DNA of 64,000 nt from Sphingomonadaceae bacterium (GTDB taxonomy: Bacteria > Pseudomonadota > Alphaproteobacteria > Sphingomonadales > Sphingomonadaceae). This document shows, in pieces, positions 33,989 to 38,997 of the stretch (its first letter is position 1; every line of letters starts with the position of its first letter). Location of the stretch: positions 1 through 64,000 of the forward strand of contig JASBUR010000021.1 in assembly GCA_030147805.1 (NCBI GenBank), written 5' to 3'. A program made the position numbers and the translations under genes. The notes beneath the pieces were generated by a model. That model made no database searches and had not been told where the DNA came from. It worked only from the letters and a program-made list of their open reading frames with translations.

Positions 33989-34525
33989 CTAGCGGCGCGG
34001 CGGCGGCGGGGTTTGAACGCGGGCCAGCTCGACCGGCAGGATCGACACGCCGAACAGCTTCCAGCGGCCGGCATCCCATTGATAGTAAAGATCGAAGCTG
34101 ATGGCGGTCGGCCGTAGCCCGAAGCTTCCCTGCGCGCGCAGCACGCCCGGCGCGATGATCGCCGGCGCGGCCGAATAGGTCGGTGCCAGCAGGACGGTGT
34201 TCGACAGGTCGATGCCCTGGCTGCGCAGATCGGCGAAGATCGTCGCGAGCCGGGCGGCGTCGTTGTTCGCCTGGAATCCCGGCGAACCGAGATCGCGCAG
34301 CACCGAATAATTGCCGGCGCGGTTGGCATGATCGATGGCGAGCATCGTGCTCCACACCATCTTCGACAGCTCGAGCGCGCTCGGCACCGGCTGCGCGGCG
34401 ACCGCCGGCGGCGGCGTCTGCGCGGCGGCCGGCATGGCGCTCGCGCTCACGAGCGCCGCGACGATCGCGACGAAGACGGCCGGGGCGCGACGCCCCGGCC
34501 CTCCTTTCGTCGACCGCTCGTTCAC
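33989..34525 (-). CDS. Hypothetical secreted protein, overlapping the trimeric autotransporter gene by 4 nt
   Basis: Signal peptide AVFVAIVAALVSASAMPAAAQ; C-terminal YQWDAGRWKLFGVSILPVELA. Confidence 0.72.
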   Translation of the reverse strand: MNERSTKGGPGRRAPAVFVAIVAALVSASAMPAAAQTPPPAVAAQPVPSALELSKMVWSTMLAIDHANRAGNYSVLRDLGSPGFQANNDAARLATIFADLRSQGIDLSNTVLLAPTYSAAPAIIAPGVLRAQGSFGLRPTAISFDLYYQWDAGRWKLFGVSILPVELARVQTPPPPRR

Positions 34526-35895
34526 CAGGCGACCTGGAAGCCGGCCCGCCCGCCGACCTCGCCCGAGTCGAGCCCGACGCCGATGCCGGCCGAGAAGGCC
34601 GACATTTCGCCGACGCGCGCCGACACCGCCGAGCTGAACGCCGTGCGCTTCTGGAAATAGCCGAAGCCGCCCGACAGCGCATAATTGGCGCGGTCGGGGA
34701 TCGACGGGCTGTCCATCGCCAGCGCCATCGCCACGCCCTCGTTGGCGGTGCGGATGTCGCGGCGGTTGACGTCGGCGAGATCGAAGAGCGTCGCGGTCTG
34801 GCCCTGCAGCGTGGCGATCGCGGCGGTATTGGCCGCGGTGTTCGCCAGCAGCGTGGTGTTGCGCCCGAGGACGCCGTTGGCGTCGACCGTCGCGACGCCG
34901 ACCGAGGCGGCCGTCTGCGCCGCCGTGCTCGCGGTGATATCGCCGACGCGGACCGAGCTGCCGGTGCCGCCGAGCACCACCTGGTTGTCGACGGTCGCGG
35001 TCGCGCCGAAGCCGATCGCGGTCGAGTTGGCGCCCGACGCGACGCTGTTCTTGCCGACCGCCGTCGCCTGCACGCCGCTCGCGCTGGCCTGGTGACCCGC
35101 CGACAGCGACAGATTGCCGGTGGCGCGCGACTGCCAGCCGAACGCCTGCGCGCCGCGGCCCGAGGCCACCGACTCGCCGCCGACGGCGGTGGCATGGAAG
35201 CCCGAGGCGAGCGCCTGGTCGCCGAGCGCGACCGCATCCTCGTCCGAGGCGACGGCGGCATTGCCGATGGCGACCGCGGTGCCGAGCGAGGCGGTGTTGG
35301 CCGATGCCGTCGTCGCCATGTTGCCGATCGCGATGCCGCTGATGCCGCTGCCGACGGCGAAATTGCCGACCGCGACCGAGGTTGCGCCGCCGGCGGCGGC
35401 GCTCTTGCCGACCGCAGTGGCGTTGGCGCCCGCCGCATTCGCCTGATGGCCCGCCGCGAGCGACAGCCCGCCCGCCGCATTGGCCTGCCAGCCGAAGGCC
35501 TGCGCGCCGCGTCCCGAGGCGACCGATTCGCCGCCAACCGCGGTCGAGTGGAAGCCCGATGCCGTCGCCTTGTCACCGAAGGCAGCGGCATCCTCGTCGG
35601 AGGCGACGGCGGCGTTGCCGACCGCGACCGACTGGCCGAGCGAGGCGGCATTGGCGCTCGCGGTGGTCGCGCCGATGCCGACCGAGACCGACTGCGCCGC
35701 GGGCGCCAGCGCGCCGTTGCCGACCGCGGTCGCCGAGGCGCCGGCCGCGAGCGCGTTGACGCCGCACTCGGTGCTGTTCGCCCCCGCGCCGACGTTGCAT
35801 TCCGGCGTCGCGTCGGCGAGCGCCGGACTCGCGGTGAACAGCGCCAATCCCGTCGCCGCCAGCAGGCGCAGCTGTAGCCTTCCCATATTGGTCAT
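34522..35895 (-). CDS. YadA-like trimeric autotransporter adhesin (short)
   Basis: Signal peptide, repeated YadA head motifs (SxAVGxxAxASG) and C-terminal YadA anchor (EGVAMALAMDSPSIPDRANYALSGGFGYFQKRTAFSSAVSARV...). Confidence 0.88.
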   Translation of the reverse strand: MTNMGRLQLRLLAATGLALFTASPALADATPECNVGAGANSTECGVNALAAGASATAVGNGALAPAAQSVSVGIGATTASANAASLGQSVAVGNAAVASDEDAAAFGDKATASGFHSTAVGGESVASGRGAQAFGWQANAAGGLSLAAGHQANAAGANATAVGKSAAAGGATSVAVGNFAVGSGISGIAIGNMATTASANTASLGTAVAIGNAAVASDEDAVALGDQALASGFHATAVGGESVASGRGAQAFGWQSRATGNLSLSAGHQASASGVQATAVGKNSVASGANSTAIGFGATATVDNQVVLGGTGSSVRVGDITASTAAQTAASVGVATVDANGVLGRNTTLLANTAANTAAIATLQGQTATLFDLADVNRRDIRTANEGVAMALAMDSPSIPDRANYALSGGFGYFQKRTAFSSAVSARVGEMSAFSAGIGVGLDSGEVGGRAGFQVAW

Positions 35896-36104
35896 CGTCT
35901 CGTCCTCCCTCTTGAAAAATTCCCCGATTAGAACCCAGCTACGCGTCGCCGGGTGGGGTGGATGCGCGCGCCGCCTGATTTGTGGCGGCTGCGGCCGCGG
36001 CGCCGGCGCGGGGCGCTTCGGGCCGGCTCGCCGCCCCTGCGCGCAGCGTCGTTGACAGCGGCCGGCGGCTGACGCTTGATCGGCGCGGGAGGCGCGCCGC
36101 GCGG

Positions 36105-36369
36105 ATGGCGACGAAGGGCAAGGCACCGACAAAGGCCGTCGCGGCCCGGGCCGCGGCGCGACCTGCGCGAGCGCCGCACGCCGCAGCCCGGCCGCTGCGG
36201 GGACGCGCGCCAGCGGCGGCGCCGGTCCGACTGTTCCAGATCTATTTCGAGCCCTGGCAGCGCGACCTGCTCGATCCCGCCTTCATCCCGTTCGACAATT
36301 CGGGTGTACGGTCGGAGCGGCTCGAATTCGACGTGTTCGAACGGCTCGCCGCGTCGAAGGCGACCGCGG
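36105..36369 (+). pseudogene. 5' fragment of a gene encoding a glycosyltransferase-associated-like protein; no plausible C-terminus
   Basis: VRLFQIYFEPWQRDLLDPAFIPFDNSGVRSERLEFDVFERLAASKAT then low-complexity Arg-rich translation. Confidence 0.4.
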
Positions 36370-36374
36370 GAGCG

Positions 36375-36540
36375 GCGTCACCGATCCAACGCTGGCGGTC
36401 AGCCCGCGCAGGAAGGGCAGGAATTCGGGGTTCATCTCAACCGCGGGCACCGCAAAGCCGGCCTCGGCAGCCATCGTCGCCGCGGCGCCCCAGTGCGAGG
36501 CGACGTCGAGCACCCGGCGCCGGGCGGCAGCTGCTCGCGG
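36375..36540 (-). pseudogene. Internal fragment of a SAM-methyltransferase-like gene
   Basis: RRVLDVASHWGAAATMAAEAGFAVPAVEMNPEFLPFLRGLTASVGSV resembles motif I of class I methyltransferases; no start or C-terminus. Confidence 0.35.
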
Positions 36541-36612
36541 TCGCTCAAAGCAGTTACTGACTACTTCTGGCAAATGGGTTAGCGTTCATCCGTTCGGCCC
36601 GGGGGGCGGTGC

Positions 36613-37314
36613 ATGGTGCAAGCGGGTATTGCCCTAATTGTCAGCTCGCTGCTGGCCATAGCTCTCGTTGCTCTATTCCACCGATGGAGAAGCGTCGGGG
36701 AAGGCCTATCGGCGACATCGGCCTTTGTAACTGTTTTAGCCGTTCTGTTGACAGCATACTGGTTCATAGTCCTCAGGCCGGATGCGCCGAGGCTGAGAAT
36801 CGGCATCCAGGCGACGCCGATTAGTCTAGCGAACGATGACCTGTTGTTGGTGTTCGAAGTCGAAGTCCAAAACGTCGGCGGCGCGCCGGTAAGGTTTGAG
36901 CAAGACGATGCGCGCGGCGGTGGCGCGGACGCGCTCCGCCCGTTCCAGTTAATGGTTCAGAAGGTCACTCCACTTCCCACTAAGGTGCGCGATGAGCTCC
37001 ATGCGGCCCGTGAAAGAGAAATGAGCAATCGCTTCCGTGTCATCGAGCCGGCTCCCGCCGACAATTGGGAACTCATGGCGTGGATCGATATGCAACCGCA
37101 CGCGTCCATCGCCGTCGGCGAAGCCGACAGTTTTTACTTCAGAACCTTAGTTAAGTGCGAGCCTGATCTCAGGATGTACGCGACAGTCAGAATTGCGCAG
37201 ACAGACGATAGAATAAGCCAGATTGTACACAAATTGCGCGGGGATGAGCACCGATTCGGTTGGATCAAGCAGGTGCTAGTTGATGCAAGCACTGCGTGTG
37301 GGGGCAAAAAATGA
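36613..37314 (+). CDS. Hypothetical protein with two N-terminal TM helices and a beta-sandwich-like domain
   Basis: GIALIVSSLLAIALVALF / AFVTVLAVLLTAYWFIVL then LLLVFEVEVQNVGGAPVRFEQDD. Confidence 0.7.
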   Translation: MVQAGIALIVSSLLAIALVALFHRWRSVGEGLSATSAFVTVLAVLLTAYWFIVLRPDAPRLRIGIQATPISLANDDLLLVFEVEVQNVGGAPVRFEQDDARGGGADALRPFQLMVQKVTPLPTKVRDELHAAREREMSNRFRVIEPAPADNWELMAWIDMQPHASIAVGEADSFYFRTLVKCEPDLRMYATVRIAQTDDRISQIVHKLRGDEHRFGWIKQVLVDASTACGGKK

Positions 37315-37589
37315 GGAGCGTTTCGAAATTTGCGATCGGGATTGTGTTGTACTTGTCAGGCTGTGGCAGTCCGGAAGCGCCCACAGATGCAACCGTGGCC
37401 GATGTGGAATCCTCAGATGCGGCGTCCGCCGTCGCTACCGACCTCGATGCGGATGAAGCAGGTGCAGCTGCAGTGGATGCCACTGTGGAGGAGGCAGTCT
37501 CCACCGATGCAGCGGCCGCAGTCGAGATGACTAGTGAGCCTATCGAGGCTCGTGAAATGCCGCCGCCGCCGCCCTCGCCTGGTGGCTAA
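37311..37589 (+). CDS. Putative small acidic lipoprotein
   Basis: MRSVSKFAIGIVLYLSGCGSPEAP lipobox LSGC; Asp/Ala/Val-rich body; proline tail PPPPPSPGG; ATGA overlap with previous gene. Confidence 0.6.
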   Translation: MRSVSKFAIGIVLYLSGCGSPEAPTDATVADVESSDAASAVATDLDADEAGAAAVDATVEEAVSTDAAAAVEMTSEPIEAREMPPPPPSPGG

Positions 37590-37664
37590 CCCTCACAGAG
37601 AATCAGTTTGCCGGGATAACGACGCGGGCCGTGCCGACAATCGCGCCGGCCTTCATTGAAGCCC

Positions 37665-37784
37665 ATGCCCGACGAGAGCGCATCGAGTGCAGCCGCCGAA
37701 ATCGGCGCGCGGGGAGGAAAGACGCGCGCGGAGAAGATGAGCCCAGAGCGTCGGGCCGAGAAAGCGGCGGCCGCCAAGCGATAG
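37665..37784 (+). CDS. Putative 39-aa basic protein (GGKTRAEKMSPERRAEKAAAAKR motif)
   Basis: MPDESASSAAAEIGARGGKTRAEKMSPERRAEKAAAAKR; motif type seen in small phage/plasmid proteins; weak SD. Confidence 0.4.
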   Translation: MPDESASSAAAEIGARGGKTRAEKMSPERRAEKAAAAKR

Positions 37785-37865
37785 AGCAAGCACTAACACT
37801 CACCTGAAAGATTCTGCTTGCTGATTTATTAAGCAAGCAGTAATGATCCTCCCGTTAGCAAGCAT
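37785..37865. promoter_or_regulatory. AGCAAGCA repeat cluster, including a perfect 9-bp inverted repeat, upstream of the P63C gene
   Basis: AGCAAGCA at 37785, 37832 and 37857 plus TGCTTGCT at 37815; CTGCTTGCT-N9-AGCAAGCAG at 37814-37840. Confidence 0.7.
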
Positions 37866-37875
37866 GGGGGCATGA

Positions 37876-38859
37876 ATGACTGACTCTCCGCAGCAAAAGG
37901 GTGGCGTCGCTCGATCTCGCGCACTGCCGGCGCAGGAGCGCTCGCGTATCGCTCGCGAGGCGGCAAAGGCAAGGTGGGGCGAGGCCAGCGCGACAGCCAA
38001 GGCCGGGTCGCCCGATAAGCCGATACGGATCGGCGGCATCGAGGTGCCTTGCTACGTCCTCGACGATGAGCGGCGAGTGGTGGCAACAAACGGCGTGCTG
38101 GATGCTCTCGAAATGGCCCGTGGCGGGGCCATGGTGGGGGGCATGAATCGTTTAGAGCTTTTCGCGGCTCAAAATCGCCTTTCGCCTTATGTTTCGAAAG
38201 ACTTACTGGCAAGAATTGCTAACCCAATCCGCTTCCGTGTGGGCAACAACACAGCGCATGGTTTTGAGTCCGATCTCTTGATTGAACTCGCCGAGGCGGT
38301 GGTCGCTGCGGATAACGCGGGTGTCCTCCAGAAACAGCAGAGCGCAATTGCGCACCGCTGCCGGCTGATCCTAGCGAGCCTCACTCGCATTGGCCTCATC
38401 GCCCTGATAGATGAGGCTACGGGCTACCAGAAAAAGCGCGATGCGGACGAACTGCAACGCATCCTGACTGCGTACCTTCTTCCAGAACATCGGCCTTGGC
38501 TGCAGGTCGTCCCGGAGGAATTCACGAACGAAATCTACCGTGTCTATGATTGGCAGCGGAAGCCGCAGAACAGGGGTCCCCGTTACGCGGGCAAGCTTAT
38601 CCGTCAGCTCGTTTATGAGCGGATGCCGAAGCCCATCCTGCCCGCGTTAGATGAAAAGAACCCAGCGGGTAAAGACCACCGCCGCAAGCATAAGCACCAT
38701 CAGTTTCTTACGCCCAAGCAGGGGCTTGATCACTTCCGCAGCCAAATCATAACCATCATGACTCTGTTGCGGATTTCCGCGGACAAGCATGAGTTCAAGG
38801 CGCACCTACGGCGGCTTTACGATCCGCAGCGCGAGTTCGATTTCAATAATCGTGCTTGA
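37876..38859 (+). CDS. P63C domain-containing protein
   Basis: IRIGGIEVPCYVLDDERRVVATNGVLDALEM...IALIDEATGYQKKRDADELQRILTAYLLPEHRPWLQVVPEEFTNEIYR...YAGKLIRQLVYERMPKPILPALDEKNP. Confidence 0.85.
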   Translation: MTDSPQQKGGVARSRALPAQERSRIAREAAKARWGEASATAKAGSPDKPIRIGGIEVPCYVLDDERRVVATNGVLDALEMARGGAMVGGMNRLELFAAQNRLSPYVSKDLLARIANPIRFRVGNNTAHGFESDLLIELAEAVVAADNAGVLQKQQSAIAHRCRLILASLTRIGLIALIDEATGYQKKRDADELQRILTAYLLPEHRPWLQVVPEEFTNEIYRVYDWQRKPQNRGPRYAGKLIRQLVYERMPKPILPALDEKNPAGKDHRRKHKHHQFLTPKQGLDHFRSQIITIMTLLRISADKHEFKAHLRRLYDPQREFDFNNRA

Positions 38860-38997
38860 CGATAGGGCGGGTTGCGTTTGCCAACTATCGTAAGGGGCTT
38901 AGTCAGGCTGATGAAGGAGGAGGCCGCCGCGGCAACCGACGCGTGATGGCGCCCGCGGCGGTCGCGCCGCGCCCATCGGGTGAGACAGACGGCGCGT

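Follow-up and report, generated by a model that had tools for sequence, protein, structure and literature searches.

In a sphingomonad contig, the gene of a P63C-domain protein has a short DNA word in front of it, present four times. Among relatives of this gene, the word goes with a helical hairpin at the N-terminus of the encoded protein. It is likely, in our view, that P63C regulates its own gene by binding this array; on the sequence comparisons presented here, autoregulation through the hairpin would be the best supported mechanism. The window referred to throughout is the whole stretch of DNA analysed, 64,000 nucleotides from Sphingomonadaceae bacterium (contig JASBUR010000021.1, positions 1 to 64,000 of the forward strand). 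Its features are collected in Table 1.

Table 1 Features of the P63C locus and the surrounding low-GC block (window coordinates).
Feature	Position	Strand	Basis or remark
Orphan two-TM protein, 233 aa	36613..37314	+	Judged separate from the P63C unit
Orphan small acidic lipoprotein, 92 aa, lipobox LSGC	37311..37589	+	Sequence
39-aa ORF, decayed partner remnant	37665..37784	+	Alignment with intact partners
Putative operator site 1, AGCAAGCA	37785..37792	+	-91 from P63C start
Putative operator site 2, inverted copy	37815..37822	-	-61; overlaps weak candidate -35
Weak candidate -35, TTGCTG	37818-37823		
Putative operator site 3	37832..37839	+	-44; inside candidate-promoter spacer
Weak candidate -10, TAATGA	37841-37846		
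Putative operator site 4	37857..37864	+	-19; near inferred transcription start
P63C-domain protein, 327 aa, phrog_2384 family	37876..38859	+	PF10546 and phrog_2384 matches
N-terminal GGxAR hairpin, residues 6-35, putative DNA-binding mini-domain	37891..37980	+	AlphaFold and operator association
Bro-N/KilA-N-like core, about residues 39-150	37990..38325	+	Foldseek against viral models
P63C domain proper, residues 196-286	38461..38733	+	Pfam PF10546

Four copies of a short word precede the P63C gene

The sequence AGCAAGCA occurs four times in the 64 kb window and all copies fall in the 91 bp that precede the start codon of P63C (37785-37864), whereas shuffled versions of the window contained 0.91 copies on average and never four. 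An earlier note on this DNA, made from the sequence alone, had described such an operator array in front of a P63C gene, and both the array and the identity of the gene were borne out. Paired-site patterns were absent elsewhere in the 3.56-Mb draft genome and present only at the P63C locus. The arrangement > < > > at about -91, -61, -44 and -19 is the commonest one and recurs in 16 other loci. Spacings of 17 and 24-25, which separate the inverted site and the two direct sites, are the same in phage homologues that are 96% and 84% identical (L002 and L003), and they have been kept despite divergence of the DNA around the sites. A promoter scan revealed no consensus sigma-70 promoter overlapping the sites; in 28 aligned loci, the -10 signal at a spacer of 17 was only slightly above that at other spacers.

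The P63C protein has a predicted N-terminal hairpin and a core with some resemblance to phage regulators

The protein matched PF10546 (9.4e-20; 71.5 bits against a Pfam cut-off of 26.1) and phrog_2384 (2.4e-86 over residues 4-317 of 327), indicating that it belongs to the P63C family and, over its full length, to a phage protein family with the same core and C-terminal domain. The P63C family takes its name from p63 of Myxococcus phage Mx8. In the AlphaFold model (118 sequences, mean pLDDT 87), helices 5-16 and 19-34 form a hairpin that holds a motif of about 30 residues, GGxARAxxLSxExRxEIAxxAAxARW, with I25 in the second helix. Foldseek comparisons with viral models gave many matches of the core to Mx8 p63, Bro-N, KilA-N and repressor-domain proteins, but with low TM-scores. 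No Pfam Bro-N or KilA-N match was detected among 118 members, and a PDB fold search returned no solved structure resembling the model (best match DdrC, probability 0.33). The core bears some resemblance to viral models of phage antirepressors and Bro-N/KilA-N regulators, but those families have neither the GGxAR hairpin nor the GCAAGCA array. One relative (L201) weakly matched phrog_2899, 'anti-repressor Ant' (1.3e-5). In another (L017), a YdaS/Cro/CI-type HTH was found in place of the N-terminal hairpin, a swap that fits a DNA-binding role for the hairpin.

The upstream word tends to follow the hairpin across P63C loci

The comparison set was made of P63C genes from IMG/VR, GTDB genomes, phages and plasmids, with about 190 relatives from at least seven phyla. 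Counts were made on genes with distinct N-terminal motifs (n = 143), and a gene was scored if it had at least two GCAAGCA words within 190 bp around its start. Such words were found at 89 of the 143 hairpin-bearing genes and at none of the 23 genes without the hairpin, a comparison that is confounded because most hairpin-less loci are part of a transposase operon and can do without their own promoter. In the controls, the count was 0.66 of 143 for shuffled sequences (maximum 2) and 0 of 143 within the gene; among other tiles from the same loci it was 4 of 4305. The canonical word was present in Proteobacteria, Actinomycetota, Planctomycetota, Acidobacteriota, Nitrospira, Chloroflexota (Dehalococcoidia) and Deinococcus.

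Variant hairpins tended to go with variant words, TGCTATC, TGCGTGC, TGCACGT and TACTTGC among them. Hairpins with SKAGKAR[LMV] and E/K-V-A were associated with TGCTATC or TGCTAAC, RSESA hairpins mostly with TGCGTGC or TGCGTAG, and KMTxEERKESS hairpins with TGCACGT; the word was TACTTGC for AxKGG with AV/AI, AGCTTGC for EGG and TGCTGGC for ARM (two loci). The strongest association with the operator was found for residue 25, the canonical word being present at 84 of 107 loci with isoleucine and at 0 of 10 with serine. Independent pairs were drawn from a tree of the protein core, leaving the motif out. They linked motif presence to the sites (about 7:0, median p 0.016) and I25 to the canonical word (about 12:0, median p 0.0005), whilst residue-to-base tests on such pairs were weak (best median p 0.03, uncorrected).

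For a hold-out, three rules were written before new loci were fetched. At least two canonical sites were detected at 12 of 17 motif-bearing and 0 of 10 motif-less loci, and at 9 of the 13 loci with isoleucine motifs; the isoleucine failures comprised two shortened genes (L270 and L271), a locus with TACTTGC, the word expected of the AV sub-class (L284), and a locus with TGCGTGC (L292). The rule that a residue other than isoleucine at position 25 goes without the canonical word failed, 3 of 4 such hold-out loci having it. Because of this failure, the residue-word code does not look like a one-residue switch; in outline, it appears to be real. Collectively, cognate sites lie upstream of the gene and co-vary with the putative DNA-binding part of the protein, which is the pattern of an autoregulated repressor. 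A broader proposal, which we hold to be evenly balanced between right and wrong, is that the hairpin may be a DNA-binding mini-domain of ~30 residues, not described before, that recognises specific sequences by a readable code and is common to P63C and many small 'hypothetical' proteins of mobile elements. In such a code, for example, I or S at position 25 and V or I at position 30 would go with different bases of the 7-bp site.

P63C genes travel with transposons, phages and plasmids

Two kinds of transposase adjoin P63C genes, IS1-like (PF03400, 4.3e-7) and IS1595 (PF12762, 1.2e-34). An IS1-like transposase was found near 27 motif-bearing loci; in most cases it is transcribed divergently and the sites occupy the stretch between the two genes, and in the others it lies directly downstream. 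In 19 of 23 cases, a motif-less locus lay directly 3' of a co-oriented IS1595 (ISXO2-like) transposase, and the hairpin-less P63C is apparently a passenger in this transposase operon. Hairpin-less genes behind an IS1595 transposase were seen at L009, L010, L013-L016, L084, L114, L187, L190, L199, L201, L209 and L221.

Complete IS1-like transposons with P63C, about 2.3-3.5 kb long, were identified at L086, L150, L166, L180, L182, L193, L197, L206 and L225. Eight closed units had terminal repeats GGTAGTGTCTCAGTTTGAAAT or close variants together with exact 8-bp target duplications, and the ninth (L166) was assigned by inspection. Most P63C-bearing IS1-like transposons also hold a ~75-aa GGxAR protein, in which the hairpin is C-terminal. 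P63C relatives share with IS1/IS1595-family transposons carrying accessory genes the transposase neighbour and, in the IS1-like units, the 8-bp target duplications. The window copy was also considered as an IS1-like transposon and rejected: unlike these relatives, it has no transposase, and no IS1-like terminal repeats were found in the window within 3 mismatches.

In some phages and plasmids, P63C lies near replication or recombination genes. It adjoins cI in phage ST104, Gordonia Kuwabara, Erwinia Midgardsormr38 and one E. coli plasmid, which is not the case in the window. DNA methyltransferase, Abi, LlaMI restriction or DndB genes adjoin P63C on several plasmids or phages (L057, L063, L064, L288, L291 and L056).

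Autoregulation as the proposed mechanism and its alternatives

In the model that we propose, P63C is a regulator gene that is complete in itself and moves horizontally, and the encoded protein would combine a helix-turn-helix-like hairpin, a Bro-N/KilA-N-like core and the P63C C-terminal domain. The hairpin would recognise the 7-bp word GCAAGCA, and the four copies covering the promoter region of the gene would allow P63C to repress its own synthesis. In transposon copies with sites between P63C and the divergent IS1-like transposase, P63C would also set the expression of the transposase. The window unit is an orphan that has neither transposase nor terminal repeats and whose partner has decayed to the 39-aa ORF. 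The computation itself shows where the sites lie, how they are conserved and arranged, that they depend on the hairpin, and in which mobile contexts the gene occurs; we infer direct binding, repression and an effect on transposase or prophage genes. Regulation of transposase or prophage genes by the P63C core fits the contexts in which it is found.

The main rival to autoregulation, and one compatible with it, is a prophage defence resembling that of BstA. P63C would then stop invading elements from replicating, and the array in front of the gene would act as a matching self-immunity element, comparable to aba, by which P63C is titrated or inactivated during replication of its own element. We regard this as unlikely. 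In related Lederbergviruses, P63C of ST104 (L059 3084-5017) and bstA of BTP1 (L293 716-2453) are found at the same position, flanked by cI and the antiterminator gene, and P63C is next to cI in the other elements named above. Its core is KilA-N-like, and methyltransferase, restriction, Abi or DndB neighbours occur in several elements. Cognate DNA elements containing short repeats lie upstream of BstA variants (PMC8585504). BstA/aba (PADLOC PDLC02356) is the closest functional analogue, being a single gene behind cI (as P63C is in relatives) with a KilA-N-like fold and a cognate upstream DNA element. P63C nevertheless does not belong to BstA by sequence, and its membership was rejected: PADLOC gave no match for P63C, although the prophage defence gene bstA fills the same locus in a related phage; the BstA profile did not match P63C up to E 10 whereas it matched BTP1 BstA at 1.9e-124; blastp gave an E of 0.038 and hhalign a probability of 2.9%. 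Moreover, aba contains two CCCGCC repeats and overlaps the start codon of bstA, whereas the P63C sites are different and lie upstream, and for copies on transposons there is no evident reason why self-immunity in replication should be required.

Autoregulation by P63C also has to be weighed against an array that serves some other factor (a host regulator, a nucleoid protein or a plasmid-type iteron) and is simply carried along with the gene. The replication and recombination genes found near P63C in some phages and plasmids would suit such a factor. We nevertheless hold this to be very improbable, since the word shifts with the hairpin class across phyla and hosts, is missing where the hairpin is missing and is the same in hosts of several phyla, and since the paired sites are confined to a single locus of this genome.

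An autoregulated regulator of a mobile element is already a known kind of system. The hairpin, the operator and their co-variation were not found in the libraries and papers searched, which covered few subscription papers; for the P63C family, these sources held one passing literature mention and recorded no operator, DNA-binding hairpin or function. P63C proteins occur in many phyla, in phages, satellites, plasmids and transposons, and have no assigned function. An operator with a matching hairpin makes the family readily testable and suggests a role in regulating mobile elements, and it gives a first clue to the function of an unannotated motif that numerous small hypothetical proteins contain. 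Transposon regulation and prophage defence would be connected should the array prove to act in trans as well, in the way that aba acts for BstA.

The low-GC block comprises at least two apparently separate units

The GC content is ~0.56-0.60 across about 36.5-38.9 kb as compared with about 0.69-0.75 outside, in agreement with the drop in composition reported by the earlier note. The codon-usage check that it had suggested indicated non-host usage, with a GC3 of 0.63 in the two-TM gene, 0.58 in the lipoprotein gene and 0.67 in the P63C gene against 0.93 in the flanking acyl-CoA dehydrogenase and polA genes. The two-TM and lipoprotein frames overlap by ATGA, as had been described. The same note took the block to be a recently acquired cargo module and P63C to be a family often met in mobile contexts. 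Acquisition and mobility hold for P63C, given its foreign codon usage, the 96% and 84% identical proteins in viral contigs and its sporadic occurrence: a survey of the sphingomonad family gave matches in only 30 of 301 genomes, and the P63C protein itself was matched in fewer than 20 of these 30. Its nearest relatives are the 96% identical protein in IMG/VR contig L002 and a protein of 83% identity encoded in a Phenylobacterium genome (L148).

The idea of one module did not survive. DNA similarity to phage and transposon copies is limited to about 37767-38861, the sites and the P63C gene. The two-TM protein had no homologue in 250 family genomes, phage records, plasmid records and IMG/VR viral contigs, and in the profile libraries searched neither it nor, at significance, the lipoprotein matched a family. 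Because homology is restricted to the P63C unit and the two-TM protein has no homologues, the block at 36.6-38.9 kb consists, as judged from these comparisons, of two or more separate parts: the two-TM/lipoprotein pair, which is an orphan, and the P63C unit, to which the two-TM membrane protein appears unrelated. Low GC and foreign codon usage are common to the whole block and would suit a single acquired cargo or defence module of four cooperating genes; the extent of homology, the orphan status of the two-TM protein and the origin of the 39-aa ORF from a P63C partner make this scarcely credible, and it was rejected.

The 39-aa ORF does echo the P63C N-terminus, the same 30-residue profile matching both (18.5 bits, and 48.2 bits for P63C), but the alignment shows that it is not an intact gene. 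It aligns with the second half of the ~75-aa partner, lacks the N-terminal half, has a 2-residue deletion of helix residues and stops at the position of the W found in relatives. It is thus a decayed remnant of the partner with its C-terminal GGxAR hairpin, and because this partner has decayed, the local P63C unit may be on its way out. Intact partners, which are absent from Pfam and NCBIfam, adjoin P63C in L148, L150, L163, L170, L180, L206 and others. The partner gene may be autoregulated too. An imperfect inverted repeat of the form TATGCTTAGCGNTAAGCAG lies directly 5' of the partner gene in L150, L163 and L206, and two GCAAGCA words were seen upstream of it in L195. A second GGxAR hairpin is encoded in an 83-aa open frame of the same genome (G000:C37:8862-8954).

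To the left of the low-GC block, short coding-like fragments resembling truncated genes are present on both strands (window 36100-36570); they gave no Pfam match and no relatives were found, an insertion/deletion scar being only suspected. The island is also adjoined by a gene for a YadA-like trimeric autotransporter with head repeats and a membrane anchor (window 34522-35895, minus strand).
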